DNA of 64,000 bases, taken from Melampsora larici-populina 98AG31 (taxonomy: Eukaryota > Basidiomycota > Pucciniomycetes > Pucciniales > Melampsoraceae). The DNA lies in contig NW_006768778.1 in NCBI RefSeq assembly GCF_000204055.1, positions 211,625-275,624 on the forward strand, written 5' to 3'. The notes under the pieces are model-generated. The model saw only the letters and a program-made list of their open reading frames with translations. It ran no database searches and was not told the DNA's origin. The translations under genes and the position numbers were made by a program. Shown piece by piece: positions 11,488 to 46,735 of the stretch. The first letter of the stretch is position 1. Every line of letters starts with the position of its first letter.

Positions 11488-13010
11488 CAGGGGCCAAAAT
11501 AGATACTCACATACATGTGAGCGTTATAGACTTTTTGGAATTCTCCAAAAAAGATTCATTTTCTTTCAGATTGATTCAATTCACAATCTTGTATGTGTTC
11601 AGGTGATCATCCTGTGGTTCTCATATTTTACTTGACATTTATTGAGAAGGCTCATTTCCATCTTGGATGAGCAATAACTGATTCCCGATGAGTACTCAGG
11701 ATCAGCTCATGAGGCACTGAATACTCAGCAATTTGTTCAAAATGAAGATGAGCACATGAACTATACCTTCCTGAGGCTTCATTTTTCAGTGAAGAAGCCT
11801 GCCCAGGGGCGTCCCATTTGAGCTGCTCAGCAAATACTCAGTAGCATCCCCTGACTGGATCACTGATGGGCCGGACTTTTCTCAGACTTCCTTGCTAAGG
11901 AATGAAGCCTGATAAAAGCGTCATCCTATCTGCTCATTGCTCAGCTAATCCTCAGTGATATCCCCGGATAAAGTTTTTCACACTGAGGGGCTGAGATCAA
12001 CTGAGCAGCCCCTCAGCCAATACTCAGTGACATCCTTTGGATCCTTCTGATCCGGCCAGGAATGTCCCTGAGGAATAGCTGAGCAGGCCCTCATCCAATG
12101 AGCAGTGAAATCCTCCGGATCCTCTTGATCTCAGGGATGCCCCTGAGGAATAACTGAGCAGCCCCTCATCCAATGGCAGTGAAATCCTCCGGATCCTCCT
12201 GATCTCAGGGATGCCCCTGAGGAATAACTGAGCAGCCCCTCATCCAATGAGCAGTGAAATCCTCCGGATCCTCCTGATCTCAGGGATGCCCCTGAGGAAT
12301 AACTGAGCAGCCCCTCATCCAATGAGCAGTGAAATCCTCCGGATCCTCCTGATCTCAGGGATGCCCCTGAGGAATAACTGAGCAGCCCCTCATCCAATGA
12401 GCAGTGAAATCCTCCGGATCCTCCTGATCTCAGGGATGCCCCTGAGGAATAACTGAGCAGCCCCTCATCCAATGAGCAGTGAAATCCTCCGGATCCTCCT
12501 GATCTCAGGGATGCCCCTGAGGAATAACTGAGCAGCCCCTCATCCAATGAGCAGTGAAATCCTCCGGATCCTCCTGATCTCAGGGATGCCCCTGAGGAAT
12601 AACTGAGCAGCTCAGTTGAACAAGCAGACAGGCCTCAGGCTTCATTCCGGAGCCATGAAGCTTGAGGCAAGCTTGGCGCTCTGTGATCCATCTGGGGGAT
12701 ACTTCAGAGACTTAGCTAAGGAAATACTCAGTTCAGCTCAGCCCCTAAGCTATACATTGGTGGCATCCCTTGGAACTTACTGAACCAGGGAATGCCGCTC
12801 AGGATCAGCTGAGCAGATGGATCAGCCCTTCTTCAGACTTCTTTGCTCAGGAATAAATGCTGAGGAAGGCTTAGTTTGTCTGCTCAGTTCCTGATGATCA
12901 CGTAATCAGCTGACAAACAGAAAGAAAAGGGAAACAAATGGGAAACGAATGGGAACAAAACAGGAAAATTTCAACGCTCACATAGTTGTGAGCATCAATT
13001 TTTGCCCCTG
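11488..13010. mobile_element. 1.5 kb inverted-repeat element with CTCAG-rich interior
   Basis: The left end CAGGGGCCAAAATAGAT with CTCACATACATGTGAGCG pairs with the right end, which in reverse reads CAGGGGCAAAAATTGAT with CTCACAACTATGTGAGCG. Arms are about 36 bases. CAGGG termini are usual for hAT-like elements, but no convincing 8-bp target duplication was found. The interior is crowded with CTGAG/CTCAG motifs and the 78-bp minisatellite. Confidence 0.6.
12050..12615. repeat. 78-bp minisatellite, about seven units
   Basis: Head-to-tail units carry GAGCAGTGAAATCCTCCGGA, then TCCTGATCTCAGGGATGCCC and CTGAGGAATAACTGAGCAGC. The central five are virtually identical and the outer ones degenerate; one unit lacks two bases near 12173. 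Because 78 is a multiple of three and no stop occurs in one minus frame, a 26-residue repeat stays open for 139 codons (12131–12547). This is treated as a by-product of the repeat, not a gene. Confidence 0.9.
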
Positions 13011-15094: not shown

Positions 15095-18000
15095 ATGGCC
15101 GCTCAACGACAACGCGCTCATCAAGCTCGTCCTCCACCTGTGCCGTCGACCCCAGTCTTGCCTCCACTTTCTTCCTCATCCACAGCGCTTCGTACTCCGG
15201 CTTTTGCTCACCAAACGCCCTCCTCTTTACCCCAGCATTCAGCCACTCGTTTCGGTGGTCTATCCGCTAAACAAGTCGACAAAGTCAGTATATATCATGT
15301 CCAGGACGTAGTGTACACTGATTGTGAATTTACTCAGTAGATCTCCTCAGCCATCGCTAGCGTCAGAAATCCTTCCCGTCGAGAACCTCCTCACGTTTCC
15401 AAGGAGCTTCAACCCCTACGTCATCCTGCAGCGCAGCATACCGTTCTTACCAGACTAAAGGGTATAGTTCTTCAACACCATTCGATCACGTGTGATCCTC
15501 TGTCATTTACTTTTGTGTTTGGTTTACGAAGGAACCACTACCTCGCCCAAGCCACCAAGCGGATGTTTTTCAGGGGCCCCACTCAATTCTCGCCTACCTT
15601 TTTTTTCGCCTAGAAAGTACAGTTCTAAGCTCGCGTCTGCTCAACATCATCCGCCTCGAAGCCCATTCGATCTGGCATCCGATGAAGAGCCTGACGTGGA
15701 GAAAACCCACGAATTCTTAGACAATCTACGCTCTGCGGGTAACCAGAAGCATCAGCATGCTAAAGATTTGGAACGCCGCCAACGAGAAACTCTCAAGGAA
15801 ATTGACACTGAGTGGCAAGAAGCCTTAATCATTGAAGATTTGCTCTTTGTTCTCATGGGCATCGAGGGCAATTTCATCGAGTTTGATCCAAATTACTCAC
15901 CTGACGACCCCTTCGAGCGCCTACAAGGCGCGCATTTCGTGGTCGACAATGATCTGGGTGCGTTCCCTCTCTGCACTGCGTCCTGAAAGCCCACACCTCG
16001 TGCCCTCGCTCTACTCTAAACTGACCCTACTGCCGTGTCCTCTTTCCATGCTGTAGACCCTTCACTTCGAGAACTGGTGGAGCGCATCCTACCCCTCGCC
16101 TCGTATTATACGTCAATCGATGCCTTTGTCGAGGCTCACAGTCATCTAGATTACGGCTTAGTCAATCATGCACTCTGTGCTGCTATCAGAGATGTGTTGA
16201 AAGTTAGTAACTTCTTCAGTATCTATGCGACGGATCTTGTCCTGAAATACCTCTTCTCCCTCACCCCTCAAGAGATATGTAACCCTGATAGTACAGCTAG
16301 AACATCAATACAACACTTCCCCGGAATTTACTCTTCAGCGATTCTGGTTCTATGTTCACGACGTGTTACATCTACTCAAGCTGCTCCATTCGCTGACGAT
16401 AGAACTGGTTTCTATCTATTCACCGAATATTCCGTCCTCCGATGAGGATTCAGGAGATGACCCTGACTTGGACGATGACTCAGAGCAGGACGAAGCTTTG
16501 AAGGCGGTTTTGAAAGAGTTCAACTCTGGTGGCCGTCGTAAGGCCGCGAAAGCCGGAGTGACTCCTGAGAACAACATAGAAGGAATGGTTGTCAAAGGTG
16601 GAGAGGTCTTAGCGGTTCTAGAAGATCGAGTAATGAATACCTTGGGAGACCCGGTTGCATCCGAGTTGTATTCTGATCTCTTGCTGAAAGCGTCTCAGCC
16701 GTATTGTAAGATGCTAATTCAATGGGTTACACAGGGTATTCTAGCTGATCCCTATGAGGAATTTATCATCAAAGAGAGCAAAAGTATCACTCGAGGAACC
16801 TTAGACATGGATTTCACCGACGAGTATTGGGAACGCAAGTATGTGCTCCGGAATCGATCGCCAGCCACTTCCGCATCTGTTACGTTGTCAACACCACATG
16901 CAAGCCAGTCAGCTCGACATCGTCGATCGGACAGTGGGCACGCGGTATGGCGGCGAGAAGGTGGCGTAGCCGGTGGCGCGGTACTGCCTAGGTTTCTGGA
17001 AGTGTGGGAAGTGAAAATTTTACTAGCAGGCAAATATGTCAACGTTATGCGTGAATGCGGGGTCGAAACAAACGGCCTCAATTCCAGCGAAGGGTCTGAT
17101 GATCACGTGCAATTTCAACTCTCTACCAAGATAGACTCACATACTTTGATCAAAATGAACAATGAAGCTTTTTTTGAATTGATAGATCGCGCATATATCT
17201 CGGCCAACAGATCTTTATTAAATCTGTTGATGAAATCTGAAGATCTTCTCGGACGACTGCAATCACTCAAACATCACTTCTTCCTCTCTCAGGGAGATAG
17301 CTTCACGACCTTTCTAGACACAGCAAATTATGAGCTGGCAAAAAAATTGAAGCATGTCAACGTTTCTCGACTTCAAAACCAATTTGACCTGGCAATTCGA
17401 AATCCGAGTAGCTCAAGTAGTAGCGATCCGTACAAAGAAGATGTCAAAGTGACTATGGCTACTACAAGCTTAACCGATTGGCTGCTACGGATCGTGGGTG
17501 TAACAGGTGCCATTGACGGAGGGCAATCGACAAGTGCCACCCGACAACACGGCTTTCTAGCCAGTGAAAGCCAACACGGTAACCATGCTGAGAGTGCCAT
17601 GGGAGTGGCGATGACGGCTTCAGAGTCTGGCGAGGTGATCGATGCCGTGGGTGTTGGTCTGGCCAAACTGGCGGCCTCTGGCCACAGCGCGAGTGATGCA
17701 GCTACCACGATCAGCTCCGAAACAAGGAGAGATGCCTTGACTGGTAAGGTTTTGATTCACGCCTTCAACTATAAACCCATCAATCGGGTTGCTCATCATC
17801 ACATTGTTTACAGGAATTGATGCGCTACAGCTAGATTATACCGTCCGGTTTCCACTTTCCCTTGTAATATCTCGAAAGACCATTCTTCGCTATCAGTTGA
17901 TTTTTCGCTACTTACTCCATTTGAAACACCTTGAGCAATCCTTAACTCTATCATGGACCGATCACATCAAATCATCAGCTTGGAGATCATCAACAAAATC

Positions 18001-28840: not shown

Positions 28841-30920
28841 TTGCCCAGAGCCATCAGAATGAGACCATTATTTTCAGCTTTCCAAGAACAAAAAGAAATG
28901 GAGCAGAGGAGGCTGGGTCTGATAGTGAACAAAAGGGCAAAGAAGAAACGGAAAGGCGACAAAAGTTCTGGAGAGGAGCAAATTACAGAAGAGTTTAACT
29001 TGGAATATGAAGACGGGACAGAGTTGGCGGGGGAAGAGATAACGGAAGAAAAAGAAACAAGGACAAGAGCTCATGATTACCCAATAATACAAGAGTGGCC
29101 GGATAAATTTGAGTGTGAAATGGATATAGAAAGGTGGAAAGAAGAGCTAGAAGCGCTTGTCCTGATGTAAGAGCATAGACATGCACTGCCAACATTTTTA
29201 TCTCGGATCTCACAATCCGAGGTATTCTCGGGTCTATGCCCTCGGACAGCTCTTGTCTGAGGATTTGATCCGAGCCAATTCACGACGCATAAGATTGCCT
29301 CGGATTGAAACCTCGGACAGGATTTATCCGAGGATATGCATCCAATGATGCCTCGGATTTCTCAACCCGAGGCAAGTATGTTGGCAGTGATGTTATCAAA
29401 GGATTTCAAGAGGGATTCACACAAGGCATACCTGAACACAGATTAGAAGGGATGAAGTTTTACTCACCACCTAACCATGAGACATCAAATGAAAGCAGAG
29501 ACAAAATAAAAGAAAAACTGAAGAAAGAATTACTTTCTGGGAGGATGCAAGGACCTTTCACAGAAGACAAGGTTTTGGAACGGGTTGGCTTCTTCAGGAC
29601 AAGTCCAATGGGGATGGTAACAAATGGTGATGGAACGACACGGATAATCAATGACCTGTCATATCCAAAGCGGAGTATAGAAGTGATGTCAGTAAATTCT
29701 ATGGTAGACAAACATGAGTTTGAAACTATTTGGGACAATTTTAAGAGGGTAGCAGAATTCTTTAGCAAACTTATGGGTAGAATTAGGGATCTTTGACTGG
29801 GAGAAGACCTATAGGCAGATCCCAAAAAAGCCAAACCAATGGAGATACCTGATGATAAGAACAGCAGATGGATGGATTCCGATAGACTCAAGAGTAACAT
29901 TTGGTGGAGTTGCTGGATGTGACCACTTTGGAGGCCCGGCGGATGCTTGGAGAGAAATTATGAGGATAAGGTTGGGATTCCTGGAAGTCTTTTGGTGGGT
30001 AGACAATAATCTATTTGTGAGACTGAAACAAGAGCAAACAAAGATATTGATGGAGGAGGTAGTTGAAGGAAGCGCAAGACTAGGTGTAAAATTTTGTCTG
30101 GAATGGACGAGAGAGATCAGTAAGCTTGCCAGAGTCAAAGAAGATAGAACATTTAGCTCAGATAAGAGAAACACTAGAGAAAACCGGACCACATACCTTC
30201 AAACAAATTGAGAAGTTGACAGGAAGACTAGTGCATGTAATGTACATGCTACCACACATGAGATGTTTCTGCATGAGCTTACATAGTTTGAAGGCGTCCT
30301 GGAAGAATAAACTGGCAATAAGGAGGCTGACGGAGACGGTGAGAACAGACTTGTTGGAGTGGGAAGAAGTCCTAACAAATTTTGAGAACCACAAGTTGAT
30401 ACCAAAGAAGGGAGTGGAGAATGTAGGATGGGTCCGAGATGCCTCAACAGGGTACGGAATAGGGGTAATAGTATGTAAATACTGGACGCAGCTGAAGCTC
30501 AAAGAAGGGTGTAACAAGAAAGATGAGAAAGGTTTGAAGCATGGGATAGTGTGGGGTCGCGATACAAGTAGGCTTAGAGATGGTACATCTACTGCACAAG
30601 ACAAAAGGGAGAAGGTTCCTAGCAATTACCAAAAATACAGGGACTAAAGCTGTGATTAGGAATCAGAAATCAAGAGATTGGTTAGTGAACGAAGAATGGA
30701 AAAAGTTGTACAAATGTTTGACTTACTTAGGCTGAGAGCTAGAAGAGAAACATGTTGCGTCAGGCAATAATAATGCAGATGCACTATCAAGAGGGAAGAG
30801 AGGAAAGAAACCGATTCACTTTTACATGCAGCCTGACCTACCAAGAGAGCTAATACAATTCCTAAAATATGAAGCAAAGAGCAAAGCCAAACTCAGGAAA
30901 GAAAGTAAAAATCAGTTTTG
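28841..30920 (+). pseudogene. Reverse transcriptase–RNase H of YR retroelement 1, disabled
   Basis: Aligns along its length with the intact RT at 47056–48774. Defects: TAA at 29168–29170, a MITE at 29184–29389, a frame change near 29780 just before FDWEKTYRQI, another near 30120, a third near 30540 and a TAG near 30740. The RT active-site VDDN of the intact copy reads VDNN here (RT aspartate lost, GAT/GAC to AAT). In the RNase H part, TDNT has become TKNT while GDAS reads RDAS. Removing the MITE and one ATG restores the alignment exactly. Confidence 0.75.
29184..29389. mobile_element. 206-bp MITE with 3-bp target duplication (ATG)
   Basis: Ends are CACTGCCAACAT and its complement ATGTTGGCAGTG; ATG flanks both sides (29181–29183 and 29390–29392). 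The interior holds several small hairpins of CTCGGAT…ATCCGAG. Three-base duplications fit the PIF/Harbinger superfamily. A second copy of the same length lies at 34694–34899 in the opposite orientation. Confidence 0.85.
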
Positions 30921-30930
30921 ACCAATTGAT

Positions 30931-31804
30931 AAAGATAGAACAGAAGAGCAGAAAGAGAAACTGACAGAGCACTTGGTGAAAGGAGCTTGGACACCAGGAA
31001 CCCTGAAGGTGTACAGCAGGTGTAAGGAGTGGTTATGGATATAGATTACAGGTTGGAGTTAATTATGGGTATAAACATGGATTAGTAGATGATAGTTACA
31101 TACTTGTTTAGATTTCATTTATCTATTTCTCTTTTTCTTTTCTTTGAGGATTTCTCTTTACCTCCTTTTCTCTTACTTAGAAGCTCTAGACTGATAGACT
31201 CGTGATAACAGTTTGCTAGAAATACAATTGGGTGCTAGTTCTGTTTGGTTTTGGCCTTTCAGTCTGAGCTTCAGTGAAGGTTGAGTTTCGTCGACCTTAC
31301 AGCAGCACAGTACAAAAACTTAAGAGTCACATAGAGAGCACGGGGAGAGAATTCAAGAGTGATGAACCAATGGTGACAGAAGATGTTTATGGGTTTATTG
31401 TGTGGGCAGGCCCGTCAGAGGTGGGAAAGAAAGCTGCACCAGGAAGGGAATTGGAACCAAAAACGATATCAAAACATCTAGCAGGACTGAAAGCTTGGCA
31501 TATGGCAAAACACCATGAGGAACCAAAACTAGACAAACAGATGGTGGACTGGTTAATAAAATCAATGGAAAGGTCAGAGGAAAAGAAAGAACTTACGAAG
31601 GAGGGGAAATCCAGTAGGGAAAAGAAGCCAATGAGTGTGAAGGACCTTTTTGAGATGGGAACGGAGCTGAATGAGAAGTCACCTCAACACAAATTGGCAA
31701 TGGTGATAGGTCTTGTAGCCTTTTGGGGGATGGCGAGACTAGGGCAACTTTTGAGGGATAAGGTAGAAGAAGGTGCGATTAAGGTGGAAGATCATAACAT
31801 TTAA
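30931..31804 (+). pseudogene. Tyrosine recombinase of YR retroelement 1, N-terminal half
   Basis: The start (LTEHLVKGAWTPGTLKVYS, 30961–31017) matches LTRAQRHMIRAGWARSTIEAYAS of the intact recombinase. After about 240 bases of non-matching sequence with stops (31033–31270), homology resumes with TVQKLKSHIES and reaches LVAFWGMARLGQLL, which holds the first catalytic arginine (MARLG). It ends in TAA at 31802–31804, where the 3.6 kb insertion begins. The C-terminal half is at 35391–35937. Confidence 0.7.
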
Positions 31805-33293
31805 TCGTAAACCGGGTTCGCTTACAAAACTCGACAAAATCCACCATTAGTGTGATTTTTGAGTTTTGTCCATGGTCAGAAACCTTTCACTGCAAATCAA
31901 TCTGCACCCACTGGAAATCAGTCATGAATATCATGTACATACATGCCGTATTGCTTTGCTCATATCAAAACGGATCTGAAACAATCATGAAATCCATTGT
32001 GAACTGCACTCAATCTCACAGTGCCTAACAGAGCCATCTTTTTTGGCTCCACTCACATCAACAACATATTTCAGAACTGAGTGTTAGCTCTAATACCACA
32101 CGGTTTATCAAGATTTGACTTTTTAGTGTTGATTCAGGAATCTTCAACCAATTTCAGCCTCTCGTTACCATCAATCAGAAAATTGAAAAATATTCTCATT
32201 TTCAAATTAAGTACCCGAGTCCCGACGTGTTGTTTTAGGTTGTTTTTTGTTGAACCTTGGATCATCCTCATGCATCACAGCATCTCGTGGATGCATCACC
32301 ATTCATCATTCATACAATTCAATTCAATTCAAAAATTGGAGGCCACCAAACAATTCATTTCCAGCATTGACCATGTGGTATGTTCTTTTCTAACTGTTTT
32401 TTGTATCTTGATTTTGTTAAAACAGATAAACATTAGATAATCTGATACTCTGTTTATCTGTCTGTTTTCAAGCCTATTGAAAATGGCCTAATGTCACCCA
32501 ATTACCATCCATCAAATAAACTCAACTCAAGTTCTCTCATTGCCAATCCTCTTCAAACTAACTTCAAACTAAACTCATCAACATCCGGCATCAATTCTAC
32601 ATAGGAACTTCAATTTATCAACATTTCAAGCCAATTGAAAACTACTAGATCCAATCAGAATGTCAAATTGACTATGTACCTTATCACAAGCCAATTGCAC
32701 TCCAACAAATGATATCATCATTATACCATCATCAAAGGAAATCAAAAGATCGCTGTTTCCAGGTGGTGAGTTTTTGTATTCATTATAAGACTCTTTGGTC
32801 AATATTGAATTGTTTTGGTCTAAGGACTTTCTTATTTTTTGCAGTGACCTACACAAGGTGTAAATTCAAACAATGTGTAAGAGAAAACATACAAATCATG
32901 AACACAAGTAGTCTATGATCTTCAATTTCAAGCAAAGAAGGGCATTTTTAATGGGTGTGTCATCATTTTTTCAGGCTGCCTATAAATTTCTGTGGACAAT
33001 TCTGAACAAATCATTTCCAAAGCACATTGATTTCATTCACGGCAAATGAAATGAGATCATAAAGGTGAAGTCGTTTTATTCCTGCCAAGAAAGAAGATAA
33101 CATCTGAAGGGATCCACTCTTAACTTTCTCAATAATTTGGTCAAAACAGTTCGGCAAATTTGATCAGTCGCTGGAGCAAATAATTGACACAAACCTACCC
33201 AGGCTCTACTAAACTAAACCAATCCATCAGACGATCAATTTTGATCATACTAGCTTTCAATTCAAACTTATCATCAGCTTTCCTATCTCAATC

Positions 33294-34080
33294 ATGAACC
33301 CAGAGTGTAAGTCAATTGATTCATATACCAATCAATCTCATGCAGTTTGACTTATCAAAATTATCATTCATTCTACCTTATATATTTGATTTCTTTCAAA
33401 GACGATTTCTTGGTATGATACAATTCCCTTGATGTTCAAGCCTTTTCAACTTCGAATTACTAATGATCAAAAGACCTCAATCAATCACTCTCATCTTACC
33501 ATTGAACCTCTTATCGATCAATCTTTGAATCAGCTTTTGGTTCAGTGAGTCTTCATCAGAATTGATTCAACTCTTTTACAATTGATTCGTGTTCATCTTC
33601 ACTGACATGGTTTTAAACTTCTTTTTAAAACTTTTGTTAATTGGTGACTCTGGAGTTGGAAAATCCTGTCTTCTCTTGAAATTCGCTGGTAAGATATCTT
33701 CATTTTCATTCAGATACTCACATATGTAGGGGTTTAAAATCATGAATTCTTCTCTGATTTGATCTAGATGATACATACACTGAAAGCTACATCTCTACAT
33801 TTGTAAGTGATCATTTCTTTTCTGTGTCAGATTTGTGTCATTTAATCGGTTTGATTTCAATCTGTGTTCAATAGGAGTCAATTTTAAGATCTGTGCAATC
33901 AAACTACAAGGCAAGGTCATCAAACTACAAATCGTAAGCAGATCCTGTTTCTCAACTGTTTATGATTTACATCAGACAATTGATATCTCATCTTTAATTC
34001 CTGATTGGAATCAATCCTGATCCATTCAAGACATCTATTAAATCAGTGGGATATTGCAGGTCAAGAACAATCTATGAAAT
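33294..34080 (+). pseudogene. YPT1/RAB1-like small GTPase, 5' part, intron-containing remnant
   Basis: Six pieces lie in gene order: 33294–33306 (MNPE), 33402–33412 (YDFL), 33631–33688 (LLLIGDSGVGKSCLLLKFA, the P-loop), 33768–33802 (DDTYTESYIST, switch I), 33875–33933 (GVNFKICAIKLQGKVIKLQI) and 34047–34080 (WDIAGQEQ, G3 box, then a stop). They match the start of Rab1/Ypt1 proteins almost residue by residue. Most are bounded by GTAAGT-like donors and CAG/TAG acceptors, so the copy came from genomic DNA, not from spliced RNA. It is broken: the acceptor of piece 3 is not recognisable, piece 4 ends out of phase with piece 5, and nothing after the G3 box is recognised. The source gene is outside the window. 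Confidence 0.82.
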
Positions 34081-34693
34081 GATTTCAGTTAGAGATCACA
34101 TGATCACATGATCATCTTGGTCATTCCACAATCTTCAGGTTTAGCATACAATACTTGACACTCAATAATGGGACATTATTTAACAGCAAGTTCTGACAGA
34201 GTTGATCCGATTGAGGTCTTCTTTGATCCTATGACCAATTCAAATCTTGATGTTACAAATTTCTTACCTCAGGCTGACGTCACAATCATTTAGTGATTTT
34301 CAAAGATGTAAGTAAAAATTGATGCCTTGACTTAAATATTGCCATGTTCAATTCAAATCAACTCCATAGATCCAGAGAACATTCATTTGTGGTTCCATCA
34401 AAGCCAGATATGATTTTGAATGACTTTCACATTGATTAAACACTTGAATAAATCAGATACCAATATCTACTGGTGAGTGAAACTTGATTATTGACTCTCT
34501 AAAATCTATCAATAGGACAAGTAGTTATGAAATATTTCAGATAGAATCACAATTGCAAAGAAAAAATATATCAATGAAGGGAAAATTTTCAACTGGAAAC
34601 AGAAATTTGAGATCTAAAAACATGGCAAGTATTCTCAAAGATGGTGAAGGGTTTATTTCACCAATGATAAGTGAGTAAAAAAGTAGCAGAAGA

Positions 34694-34899
34694 CACTGCC
34701 AGCATAGATGCTTCGGGTTGAGAAATCCGAGGCATCATTGGAGGCAAATCCTCAGACAAACCTTGTCCGAGGTATTTGCCCAAGGTATTTTTTTGCCCTG
34801 AGAATTACCTCGGATCAAAACCTTGGGAAGCTTCTGTCCGAGGTTTTGCATCCAAGGATACCTCGGATTTTGTAATCCGAGGTAAATATGTTGGTGGTG
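34694..34899. mobile_element. 206-bp MITE, second copy, with 3-bp target duplication (AGA)
   Basis: Ends are CACTGCCAGCAT and ATGTTGGTGGTG; AGA flanks both sides (34691–34693 and 34900–34902). Reversed, it matches the copy at 29184–29389 in length and internal CCTCGGAT hairpins. Confidence 0.82.
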
Positions 34900-35390
34900 A
34901 GAGATGATGAATTGGAGCATTTGAACTTATGTAGGAGTACCGGGAATCCCTGAAACTAATTTCCAAATCAGATCAAGAAGGGGATGATTAGGACACAAGG
35001 ACTGAAGCATCTGGACAACTCTTTCAGTGACAATGATGGACCTCACATCAAAGTCACTGTTGTACTTATGACTAGACAGGAAGTACTGTTCTTATCCCAT
35101 GAAGTTTGAGTCATAAGAGTAATGTGCAGGTGAAGGAATTAAACTTAGGGTAGTATTGTCAGATATTTCTAACAGAAGGAGATGCTCATAACAGATTTGC
35201 CATTACTCCAAAACTTAGGTCCACATGCCAAGAAGTCTCTAGAATTCAGCCTTGAGAAGGATACATTGACAGTCTCAACAAATTCTCCTTTGGGCTAACA
35301 TCAATGAATTGAGTGTTTGCAGATTGAGCATAGCGTGCATCAATGGAAGTCAATATTTTGAGAGCGGCGCCCGCCGCACATATGATAGTC

Positions 35391-35937
35391 TTAGTTTTGA
35401 AAGAGGGAAAAGTGGAAGAGTAGCAGTGATAAAGTTGATGAAGGCAAAGACGGCAAAGACGGCAAAGACGGCAAGGCCGGGAGAAGCTCAGTACATAAGG
35501 TAAGTAGATAGAAGAAGAGGAACTGACTTATGAAAAAGATGAACAGGATGCACAAACAGTACTCAGTCCTAGACCCGGTATTGGCCTTGGTAAGGTTCTT
35601 GGCGCAAGAACACCCCACAAGAAGGAAGATGGATATTTTATTCTCTAATCTGGTAGAAGGTGAGAGAGTAACAATATCAAAGGCAAGTTTCATAAGGATG
35701 ACGGAATCTGTATGGGGATCAAGCAGTGTGAAGAGTGGTAGATGGTCCGGACACTCATTCAGAGTGGGAGGGGCATCTTTAAGGTTCAATATGGGATGGG
35801 ACAAAGAGAGGATTATGGAAGCGGGAAGGTGGAAGTCAGAGGCAGTAGATTGCTATTTGAAAAAATGCTCAGAAGAGGAAAGAGGAAAGGGAATGGCAAG
35901 AGAGAGGTTCCCGGAAATTGAGGAAAGAACAAAGTAA
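35391..35937 (+). pseudogene. Tyrosine recombinase of YR retroelement 1, C-terminal half
   Basis: Starts with SFERGKSGRVAVIKLMKAKT and, after a stop and a 56-bp stretch bounded by GTAAGT and ACAG (35502–35557), continues as SVLDPVLALVRFLAQEHP to the catalytic box GHSFRVGGAS, then GRWKSEAVDCYLKKC with the nucleophilic tyrosine. A GGCAAAGAC triplication at 35443–35472 (TAK repeated) lengthens the protein compared with the intact copy. It ends at TAA 35935–35937. Confidence 0.72.
35443..35472 (+). repeat. 9-bp tandem repeat inside the recombinase frame
   Basis: GGCAAAGAC occurs three times in a row, followed by GGCAAGGCC, adding Thr-Ala-Lys triplets where the intact paralogue has a single KTA. 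A simple slippage expansion. Confidence 0.8.
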
Positions 35938-36510: not shown

Positions 36511-37230
36511 GAATCTCCTGGTGAAAAGTTGTTTAACACAGATGTCAAAGGTTATAATAGTGGGATTTCAAAATCTCCTGGAGTGTTATCAAAAGAGCTT
36601 TTACAAGGAAATTTAATTGATCTTCGTTGTATTAAAGGTGAATTACTTAACATTAGAAGAGATGATGCTGCTGCTTTTGCTTTTGCGGTTGAAGGAAAAG
36701 AGCAAAAATTGGAGGTTTCTGCAAAATCTTATTCTCAAAATATCCACAGTCATGCGGAATGGCTTTATTATTTCAAAATCTTCAAAAACACAATCAAAGA
36801 AGCTTTTCCAGATTGTATCAATCTCATTAAGGCTTATTCTAAATACATCAAAAATCAATTATGGTCTCACGGTATTGAATCACATTGGAAAAACATTGTG
36901 GCTTACAATACAGCGTTTAGGGAGCAGGTGGCCAAGAGGAAGGGTATTAGCTTCACTGACTGGAATCATCCTGATGTACAGTCTCTCAATAGCAGATTCA
37001 TTTCAAACGCTTTGTACCAGCATGCTCACTCTTCATCTCCTGTTTATGCAAAAACAGTTTTTCCAGTTCCAACAAGACAAAGAACCTCAAATCAACAAAA
37101 TTACCAGCAAAATTTTGGAGCAGGTCCTTCAAGGTATAGGGATCAAAGAAGAGACCCTATGGACCCTCCTTATCAATTGAGCTTCAAACACAAGGATCTA
37201 TATGAAATTGAGGAGGCAAAAGGACTTTGA
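36511..37230 (+). pseudogene. Gag-like protein of YR retroelement 2
   Basis: An open frame of about 240 codons without a convincing ATG, so the start is probably missing. The middle is helical and aromatic (HAEWLYYFKIFKNTIKEAFP, HWKNIVAYNTAFREQVAKRK). The C-terminus is Gln/Arg-rich (NYQQNFGAGPSRYRDQRRDP), suiting nucleic-acid binding. The role is inferred from its place before the RT. Confidence 0.55.
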
Positions 37231-37419
37231 GTCAAGGAACAATTTTGTTTTTTGTGGAATTTGAGGAAAGAATGTAAGGCAGGAGCTTCATGTCCTCGGA
37301 TCCATAAATGTGTTGGTCCTTTTTTTTATTCTTAAATCATTTTTGTCGTGTGTTATAACAGTCGATTCATCAGTTAGCCAGTATTGGTTTGGCGTTTGTT
37401 CATAGCCTGAGGCTGATTT

Positions 37420-39113
37420 TTGAGTTATCTCTCTAGAATGTTTGCAAATGTTGTGTTGCGCACAGAGGATGTGACCACCCCTGAAGAATACACATCAGCA
37501 AAATTTCTTTGGGGATACCAATGGGATGGGATTTCAGTGACGGGGTTCTCATCAGCAATTGAATCAATTCAATTTGCAAGGCCCTTTCCTGACGCACCTT
37601 CTTTGGAAGTGGATATCAATGCAAAATTTATCACAAAACAATATCTTACTTTGTTTAACATCAGCAATCCCTTCAACGTGGATAAAATGGAAGAACTTTT
37701 GAGACACCATCCTAATCAAAAATTTGTTAGTTCTGCTATGAAAGGTTTAAGGATAGGCTTTTGGCCATCATTGTTTTTACCATCATCCAAAATTATCAAT
37801 ACGCCAAATCATCAAACCTGCATCAAAAATCAATCTCTGCTTGAAGAACAATTTGAAGAAGAAATTCAGAAGGGTAGATATTCTGAAGAGTTTTCAATTT
37901 TGTTACCCGGCATGAAAGTAATACCGCTGTTGATGACATCTAAGAAAGATCTGAAAAAGATGAGGGTCTGCTCCAACATGAGCTTTGGTCAACCTTCACC
38001 TAATGTTTTAGTAGACCAAAACAACATAGCAGTGTCTTATGATTCATTAAAATCTTTCACACCTTATCTGATTGAAATGAAAAAAGAGAAAGGTGATGTA
38101 GCAATATTCAAATCTGATGTAGAAGGTGCTTTCAGAACAAACCCACTTCATTATCAATATCAAATACAACAAATAATCAGGATTAAGAAAAAGTATGGAG
38201 TGGACCATAATTTAACATTTGGTTCATCTGCTAGTCCACACATCTGGGGTGGTGTTTTTTCATTAGTTTTGTGGATTGCTGAACAAGTGTTTCACATTAA
38301 GAATCTCAGTTGCACGATGGATGATGTATGGGGAGTTGCTTCTGCAAACAACTTTGTGGTTTTTAAGGACCATTGAATTACATTGGTTCAGGCAAAACTT
38401 TTAATGATTTTTGACATCTTAGGAGTGCCTTGGAGATGGAAGAAACGGATACATGGTCCTGTCCTGGAAGTAATTGGGCATGTGGTCAATTCAGAAAAAA
38501 TGCTGATTTATCTTGCACATGACAAAAAGCAGTCAATGATTGTCGCAATCAAGGACTTTGTTTCTTGACCAAAGCAACTGTTATGTGGATGCAATCTTCA
38601 GAACAATGGCTTGATTGGGGTTGTAACTCAATGCCATTTGGTTGATTTGCACTACAGATTCTATATGAAAAGACAGGGGGAAAGTTGGAACACTTTCTTC
38701 CAATTTACCTCAATAAGGAGAATCAGGATGACCTAAGATGGCTAATCAAATCCTTTTCAAGTTGTGATGGTATTTGCATGATTGAAGCTTTGAAATTGTC
38801 AATTGCAGAAGCCGACACTGTGTTTTTCACCAACGCATGTCCTACGGGTATTGGTATATTGGAACCAATTCCAAAACTCGGTTCTTACTTCAGGCTTCCA
38901 CTTCCTTCCAGGAATATTTTCTGGGCCAAGCTTTTAGGAATTGTATGTGCCATTGACATTTCCATTGATAAAGGTTGGAAACAGATTTTTATTCACACTG
39001 ATGCCAATATCTCCTTCCATCTATTCAATTGTCACAACCCAAATATAATTTTTGACCTCTTTTCCGTCATTGTGTTTCTTGTTTGGTGGAAGCAAAAGCT
39101 GAAGTCAGATTAG
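37420..39113 (+). pseudogene. Reverse transcriptase–RNase H of YR retroelement 2, disabled
   Basis: RT motifs: VAIFKSDVEGAFR with the first catalytic aspartate (38098–38136), LTFGSSASPHIWGGVFS and CTMDDVWG (38312–38335). The frame is cut by TGA at 38374–38376 and 38566–38568, then shifts to the RNase H part at 38685. There the usual TDA reads TNA (VFFTNACPTGIG) and the glutamate expected in a W-A-E-L-L motif is lysine (FWAKLLGIV). Both losses fit G-to-A changes. The later aspartate (HTD) is still present. Confidence 0.72.
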
Positions 39114-45673: not shown

Positions 45674-46735
45674 TCAAGCCGAGAAGTGAGGAATTACATC
45701 TTCTGTTATCAACAAGATCCGCTTTGCTGATTCCCAGTCGTGCTCGTTCCATTCTCGCTGGTACAACGCATGACAAGAGGACTCCCATCTTCCCAATTTC
45801 TTAATCGCCGCTAAGCTGACTCCTGCCTTCGTCAATAAGGTCGCTCCGCCTATCCTGAAGGAGTGACCAGTCATACTCGAGTTCTTACCCCAAGTACGCT
45901 CCATGGCGCTCACCACCAAGTTCCTCGTGATCGCAGTAGTGCCGTCTTTTCCCCAGGTCATGAACAACCTGGGGTCTTTGACTCTTTCCAAACAGGCTAC
46001 CAGGTTCTTTAAGGCCTCCACTGGGCAAAGTACTCCGCCTGTCGCTCGAAGAGTTAGGGGTTGAGTCACACCTGGGGCGGCGGTCTTAGATTCGCGTAAG
46101 GTGATTTCAGCGCAGCTTAAGTTGTTGTCTTTGTAGAAGCGAATGTCGGAACGCAAGATAGCGCGATGGTCGTGTCGATCATACAAGGTTGACTTATAGA
46201 CGAGTTCCCCTAACCGGCCGAGTCCCCAATAGGCTGTGAGGACTAGTGCGGTCAGGCCTTTTGGGTCGACTTCAAATTCCGCTATGTTCGCAACCAGGGC
46301 TAGCAAGGCTTTGGGGGTTATCGGTTGTTGATTAAGCTTCTGTACAGGTGCTCTGACTTCCAGGTTCTTCAATGCTCGAAGGAGCGTCTTTAGGCGGGTG
46401 AGGTGGATGTTAGGGAAGTTGTAGCCATGAAAGGCGTGCCACGTGCGTAAGGCGGTTAAATACTTGGTGATCGTAGACACTTTGACTGGTTTGTTAGTAG
46501 CGTTCGGGTTGACGTTATGGCCTGCCCATATGATGAACCTTTCGACGGTATCGCAGGATGCCGGGAACGCCTGAAGGTGTTTCAAGGATGTGAATAATTT
46601 AAACTTCTTGACTCCAGAAGCGTAAGCCTCTATCGTGGATCGGGCCCAGCCAGCTCTGATCATATGACGCTGGGCTCGAGTTAAGGGGGTCTTCTTGTCG
46701 TCTTTGATTCGAAGAAAGGATTTGATGCACTTCAT
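45674..46735 (-). CDS. Tyrosine recombinase of YR retroelement 3
   Basis: 353 residues from ATG at 46735. An N-terminal SAM-like DNA-binding half (RSTIEAYASGVKKFKLF; TITKYLTALRTWH) precedes the catalytic half with R174 (WGLGRLGELVY), the H291-S-F-R294 box (TGHSFRIGGAT), W317 (LGRWES) and the nucleophile Y325 (HALYQREW). All expected catalytic residues are present. It would integrate circular cDNA by recombination without making target duplications. It lies 320 bp downstream of the RT frame on the same strand and is probably translated from the same or a downstream RNA. Confidence 0.9.
   Translation of the reverse strand: MKCIKSFLRIKDDKKTPLTRAQRHMIRAGWARSTIEAYASGVKKFKLFTSLKHLQAFPASCDTVERFIIWAGHNVNPNATNKPVKVSTITKYLTALRTWHAFHGYNFPNIHLTRLKTLLRALKNLEVRAPVQKLNQQPITPKALLALVANIAEFEVDPKGLTALVLTAYWGLGRLGELVYKSTLYDRHDHRAILRSDIRFYKDNNLSCAEITLRESKTAAPGVTQPLTLRATGGVLCPVEALKNLVACLERVKDPRLFMTWGKDGTTAITRNLVVSAMERTWGKNSSMTGHSFRIGGATLLTKAGVSLAAIKKLGRWESSCHALYQREWNEHDWESAKRILLITEDVIPHFSA

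Follow-up and report, generated by a model that had tools for sequence, protein, structure and literature searches.

We studied a fragment of the essential vesicle-traffic gene YPT1/RAB1 that lies in a 64,000-nucleotide stretch of Melampsora larici-populina 98AG31 DNA (bases 211625-275624 of contig C14; hereafter, the window). The fragment is most probably carried by a Helitron. At a probability of about 0.93, window positions 31792-35388 are a decayed, non-autonomous canonical Helitron that contains two captured gene pieces, one from YPT1 and one from a second gene that we call gene X, and that is inserted in a recombinase gene (Table 1). This figure refers to the reading as a whole and not to the separate steps of its proposed history. 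An earlier description made from the DNA letters alone (the sequence-only reading) had recognized the YPT1 fragment and taken its carrier for a retroelement. Instead, the carrier has Helitron ends that recur genome-wide, and a retroelement is probably involved as the landing site only.

The genome searched was the 98.3-Mb assembly of 243 contigs. The first DNA search, with window 31780-35420 as the query (best 40 of 470 candidates scored), was dominated by a 206-bp miniature inverted-repeat transposable element (MITE), and the searches were repeated by part without it (left part, best 40 of 60 candidates; right part, 2 of 2). In the genome DNA search, window 33235-33987 matched C81:243914-244660 on the minus strand with 82% identity (E = 2.6e-205), and a chance resemblance to the YPT1 locus is therefore excluded. 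The region C81:243.3-244.6 kb holds an intact Ypt1/Rab1 gene. It has nine exons and encodes 204 residues, the last two being CC, and when the coding portion of exon 7 was compared to solved structures, Rab1A, Rab1B, and yeast YPT1 chains matched best. Judging from the frame and the splice signals, this gene seems to include a 4-nt microexon (TTCA) that is required to keep the frame. The YPT1 pieces that the sequence-only reading had listed in order are all present on the + strand of the window, and the copy of the 4-nt exon adds one more. The sequence-only reading had also taken the window copy not to be the working locus, and a complete gene indeed lies on another contig. Among the best-scored candidates of the genome searches, YPT1 DNA was located at two places only, C81 and the window.

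The copy retains six introns, and all six sit at the positions that they occupy in the C81 gene, confirming the earlier claim that the copy was made from DNA and not from mRNA. Introns are also retained in the gene pieces captured by maize Helitrons. Compared to the intact gene, five of the six splice donors are identical and the sixth is still GT, while the acceptor AG is retained in four cases and lost in two; most pieces are thus still bounded by splice signals, as had been noticed. The six introns rule out a retroposition of YPT1. A processed pseudogene or a transduction by a retroelement would find some support in the landing gene, which may belong to a DIRS-type retroelement, but the retained introns, the Helitron ends, and the lack of a target-site duplication make such an origin extremely improbable.

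Copy and native gene are identical at 406 of 525 intron positions (Jukes-Cantor K of 0.270), at 187 of 209 exon positions (K of 0.113), and at 74 of 92 positions of the upstream stretch. The exon differences are distributed over codon positions 1, 2, and 3 as 8/70, 4/70, and 10/69. For an unselected copy compared with a constrained gene, the exon K is expected to be about half the intron K, and the observed intron K, about twice the exon K, therefore fits this situation. The YPT1 piece appears to have drifted since its capture, without visible selection. On sequence grounds, a functional second YPT1 in the window can be ruled out, given the two lost acceptors, the 1-nt deletion, the truncation, and the drift. 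We also considered that the copy might be expressed and used in another way, for instance in the form of a truncated Rab or of a regulatory RNA for YPT1. In favor of such a role, the copy preserves the ATG with up to ~97 bp ahead of it, along with most splice signals, but the same lesions, together with a divergence like that of unselected sequence, make it very unlikely. Changes from the native gene to the copy amounted to 58 for C>T plus G>A versus 39 for T>C plus A>G; as the direction of these changes is not polarised, no inference on repeat-induced mutation of the copy was drawn.

Part of the evidence for the limits of the carrier came from the gene that it interrupts. Eight non-self matches to the left half of the recombinase gene extend to base 31791, and three of these eight were retrieved for comparison. 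These paralogues, on C131, C63, and C5, read KVEDLSF unbroken across the insertion point. In the window, by contrast, KVE is followed by a codon that is interrupted at base 31791, and LSF resumes right after base 35389. Because the three paralogues are uninterrupted at the break, the two halves represent one gene, and the earlier proposal that a 3.6-kb segment splits a recombinase gene is borne out, with ends at 31792 and 35388. The landing gene is tyrosine-recombinase-like, and motifs read by eye suggest that it probably belongs to a DIRS-type retroelement. In the three upstream frames tried, no Pfam match to a reverse transcriptase was obtained, and motifs resembling this enzyme were seen by eye only.

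The structure of the segment agrees with the marks stated for Helitrons, which are a TC start, a hairpin, a CTRR end, insertion between A and T, and neither a terminal inverted repeat nor a target duplication (PMC4289320). It begins with TC, bears hairpins, ends one base off CTRR (its C40 relative ends in CTAG), and is inserted between A31791 and T35389, where the flanks have no bases in common and hence no target-site duplication was found. A terminal inverted repeat is likewise missing, as only 9 of 30 terminal bases agree in an ungapped comparison. On the basis of these features, we read 31792-35388 as a Helitron, and as a non-autonomous one; inspection by eye revealed no RepHel-like frame of 90 amino acids or more inside the element.

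The ends of the segment recur elsewhere in the genome, the 3' end in a relative on C40 and the 5' end at no fewer than 33 other loci (among the best 40 of 60 candidates). The match starts at window position 31791 or 31792 in 19 of these 33 loci and between 31786 and 31800 in the other 14. When 24 distinct 5'-end loci, the window included, were compared, 22 started with TC and 20 were preceded by A. An assignment to Helitron2/Helentron, which is defined by T-rich or TT insertion sites and asymmetric terminal inverted repeats (PMC5148889), was rejected on account of these preceding A residues and the absence of a terminal inverted repeat. The flanks of the 5' ends (40 bases per locus, judged by eye) look unrelated, except for two pairs (L059 with L061 and L062 with L063), which may be allelic or duplicated. 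Separately, two Rab-like matches, C8:1722144-1722428 and C106:109675-109959, score identically. These identical scores and the Helitron copies with common flanks suggest that the assembly retains some duplicated or allelic stretches.

Both ends could also be followed as motifs. A 29-base motif just inside the 5' end gave 32 genome matches (window included) versus 0 in the reversed control, and the 3' motif GGCGCCNGCC-N9-13-CTAGT gave 308 versus 1. Moreover, at least 147 matches to the Helitron_like_N family are present in the genome (best 150 of 168 candidates scored). Pairing of the ends was counted on contigs C1 to C14:302449, covering 100 of the 308 3'-motif sites. The sample comprised 41 Helitron_like_N matches (of 147) and 11 of the 5'-end loci other than the window (of 33); three matches on C1 and C12 that belonged to a locus already represented were left out. 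For 6 of the 11 5' ends, a 3' motif lay on the same strand no more than 15 kb downstream, compared to 0, 1, and 1 of 11 for the other three arrangements. The corresponding number for the Helitron_like_N matches was 11 of 41 (2, 1, and 0 of 41 in the other arrangements), although two of these 11 have one common motif site on C9, with one just 3 bp away.

Table 1. Features of the Helitron, its captured gene pieces, and its landing site (window coordinates)
Feature	Position	Strand	Evidence or remark
Non-autonomous Helitron with gene fragments, 3,597 bp	31792..35388	+	Insertion point A31791/T35389
Conserved Helitron 5' terminus (TCATAACATTTAA...)	31792..31906	+	Many genome matches extend to query base 127
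Subterminal inverted repeat/hairpin by the 5' end	31824..31869	+	DNA fold z -3.27; 0/200 shuffles as good
Helitron 5' body	31792..33045	+	Piecewise in C15, C116, C20, C21, and C74 at 75-81% identity
Captured gene X fragment, antisense to the element	~33040-33196	-	81% DNA identity to C9:1779152-1779309
Captured YPT1/RAB1 genomic fragment	33197..34073	+	Exons 1-6 with six introns, the first part of exon 7, and at most ~97 bp preceding the ATG; borders known to within ~20-35 bp
YPT1 exon 1 copy (MNPE)	33294-33306	+	Alignment to intact gene
YPT1 exon 2 copy (YDFL)	33402-33412	+	Alignment to intact gene
YPT1 4-nt exon copy (TTCA), acceptor lost (TTTTGG vs TTTTAG)	33541-33544	+	
YPT1 P-loop exon copy (GDSGVGKS), acceptor lost (TTTTAA vs TTTTAG)	33629-33688	+	
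YPT1 exon 5 copy (DDTYTESYIST), with 1-nt deletion	33768-33802	+	
YPT1 exon 6 copy (GVNFKI)	33875-33933	+	
YPT1 exon 7 copy (WDIAGQEQ), initial 27 nt only	34047-34073	+	
Helitron 3' part	34109..35388	+	Only relative found, C40:143976-153175, 85-97% piecewise
206-bp MITE inside this Helitron copy, missing from the C40 relative	34694..34899	.	
3' hairpin GCGGC-GCCC-GCCGC, 14 nt, 5-bp stem	35364..35377	+	11 nt before the end, 7 nt before the terminal four bases
3' terminal ATAG, then T	35385..35388	+	CTAG then T at the same base of the C40 relative
Recombinase gene, left part	31268..31791	+	Paralogue comparison
Recombinase gene, right part, HSFRVGGAS motif	35389..35937	+	Phage_integrase E 0.012 (under curated cut-off); paralogues

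The second captured piece, absent from the sequence-only reading, comes from gene X. The intact locus of this gene, an open frame of 257 residues, lies on the minus strand of C9, and the protein match in the window is at C14:244727-244822 on the minus strand (window 33103-33198). Apart from C9 itself, gene X was matched by decayed copies at C15 (two rows), at C21, and in the window (5 rows in all; all 6 candidates scored). The copies on C15, on C21, and in the window are all antisense and adjoin 5' body sequence of this Helitron, and on C9 and C15 gene X extends beyond the point where the window changes to YPT1. As to what gene X encodes, Pfam returned one match, under the cut-off, and none of the 534 candidates of a protein search reached E <= 0.001. 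We infer that it belongs to the host and not to another element. Because the two other Helitrons, on C15 and C21, bear gene X without a YPT1 match, and C81 and the window alone gave YPT1 DNA among the best-scored candidates, gene X would have been taken up before YPT1. Capture was probably stepwise, and the YPT1 piece would be the more recent gain of this lineage.

For the 3' part of the Helitron, the C40 relative (L010 and L012), with its 3' boundary at C40:153175, was the sole one found (2 of 2 candidates). It is itself interrupted by a MITE-like insert of ~470 bp and by a stretch of ~7.6 kb. The homology to C40 starts 35 nt beyond the rightmost base that is clearly YPT1. Between the window and C40, the 3' part has a K of only 0.053, far below the K of the YPT1 introns, which suggests that YPT1 was captured before the two elements split. 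The C40 element may thus be a truncated daughter or sister of a YPT1-bearing element. This timing bears on an alternative within the Helitron reading, namely that break repair pasted YPT1 into a Helitron already resident at this site and that no movement followed. Such an event would agree with the finding that YPT1 DNA occurs only in this copy and in the native gene. However, the YPT1 piece seems older than the split from C40, which may itself have lost YPT1 sequence by truncation after the capture, and we consider a paste into a resident element unlikely. As for the 206-bp MITE, at least 31 other copies with 95 to 98% identity are present in the genome, and an inverted stretch that is ~76% like it occurs at window 29184-29389, in the upstream recombinase element.

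Some observations weigh against the Helitron reading, or against parts of it. Among the 24 compared 5' ends, three follow a T, the one on C116 is truncated after C, and the one on C72 starts with CC. No 3' motif was found within 15 kb for 5 of the 11 5' ends and 30 of the 41 Helitron_like_N matches. This copy ends in ATAG, one base off CTRR, and CTAG occurs solely in the C40 relative, so that a CTRR end is present when the two are judged together. The fold of the 3' hairpin is only a modest improvement on shuffled sequences (z of -1.75, with 9 of 200 as good), and its 14 nt fall short of the 16 to 20 nt stated for Helitrons in PMC4289320. An autonomous element with the same 5' end was not found; one C14 stretch was read, in which the 5' end was not reached. 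As to the capture itself, the left side of the C40 relative is a mosaic of other repeats, and C40 was therefore not retained as evidence that fixes the right capture junction. Since this is the single relative found for the 3' part, that junction is not pinned. Finally, no junction microhomology was demonstrable, the overlaps being too diverged. The stretches at the edges of the fragment match YPT1 weakly, with 20 of 1000 shuffles on the right and 15 of 1000 on the left scoring as well.

Taking the segment as a Helitron, its history could have run as follows. An ancestral Helitron would first have gained the gene X piece in antisense. Later, in this lineage, the YPT1 stretch, beginning shortly ahead of the ATG and ending in the first part of exon 7, would have been copied into the interior of the element, taking the place of sequence beyond the gene X piece. 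Given the Helitron explanation, we moderately favor template switching or break repair, with YPT1 as filler DNA, as the way in which it was copied in. An internal event is preferred over a simple read-through of the 3' end, two models that are both discussed in PMC6544945, because YPT1 is flanked by gene X on one side and by Helitron 3' sequence, not the remainder of YPT1, on the other. In a more elaborate form, known as end bypass, an element just before YPT1 would have read beyond its own 3' end and stopped at a new terminator, and later deletion and recombination would have given the interior position. This is an accepted capture route (PMC6544945), and YPT1 indeed follows in sense directly after Helitron-borne sequence. 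Nevertheless, the left junction lies inside the gene X piece, where no Helitron 3' terminus is present, and gene X runs further on C9 and C15; in view of this and of the Helitron sequence on the right, we regard end bypass as rather unlikely. The element would have moved to its site in the tyrosine-recombinase-like gene with a RepHel protein provided in trans, presumably by one of the many autonomous-looking Helitrons of the genome. We further consider, as a tentative and somewhat doubtful extension, that this Helitron lineage gathers gene pieces stepwise and stays mobile, with C40 as a truncated daughter, and that genes are shuffled, as in maize, in this fungal genome on an undescribed scale.

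Several other features lie around the landing site. A second retroelement-like stretch adjoins downstream (window 36511-39113) and includes a weak RVT_3 match at 38646-39110 (E = 0.0045, under the cut-off). On the minus strand, window 45674-46735 holds a frame of 353 amino acids that resembles Phage_integrase weakly (E = 0.0022, under the cut-off) and may be a further recombinase gene. Farther upstream are a gamma-tubulin complex component gene at window 16363-17820 on the + strand (GCP N-terminal domain, E = 2.8e-31) and a tandem array with units of ~75 bp at window 11952-12686.

The sequence-only reading had called the capture of a YPT1 fragment by a mobile segment unusual. This holds only to a modest degree, since Helitrons are known for gene capture, and the main oddity that remains is the fungal host. 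The oddity of the YPT1 fragment is thus explained by a known process and not by a new one: it is best read as ordinary Helitron gene capture, a familiar process in a less usual host. Helitron capture is well known in plants and has seldom been worked out in fungi. Here, a fungal case is worked through, with the source gene in the same genome, the element ends, unbroken target sites, two captures in a probable order, and an internal measure of neutral drift, and the extent of capture in such genomes becomes directly countable. In a full-text literature search that left many journals uncovered, no title or abstract beginning among the papers listed described Helitron gene capture in a rust, and the accessible portions of three rust genome papers mention Helitrons solely by their occurrence or their genome fraction (PMC12210899, PMC3164196, and PMC3579696).

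In other organisms, gene capture by Helitrons is reported to be very frequent in maize, to be frequent in bats, and to have affected 268 genes in the silkworm (PMC6544945). The gene-capturing Helitrons of maize resemble the element described here in that they carry pieces of host genes, sometimes of several genes per element, and in that most of these pieces are dead remnants (PMC4528327 and PMC6544945); they differ in that the host here is a fungus and one YPT1-bearing copy was found. Hel1A of Spodoptera frugiperda is similar in its stepwise internal acquisitions, which its authors read as filler DNA, but its host is an insect, and its junctions have overlaps of 2 to 13 bp, which are not resolvable in our element (PMC6544945). 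Among fungi, 27 putative captures are listed for the FoHeli elements of Fusarium oxysporum, yet these are Helitron2-like and non-canonical, with asymmetric terminal inverted repeats, while the element in the window has canonical ends (PMC5148889). HELPO1 and HELPO2 of Pleurotus ostreatus are, as here, basidiomycete Helitrons with A/T insertion, a subterminal hairpin, and a 3' CT[A/T]G (PMC4289320). HELPO1 copies bear one to four gene-like "captured" sequences, and the conclusion given in the accessible part of that study is that its Helitrons do not capture host genes (PMC4289320). Unlike in HELPO1 and HELPO2, the source locus of the captured sequence is present here in the same genome.
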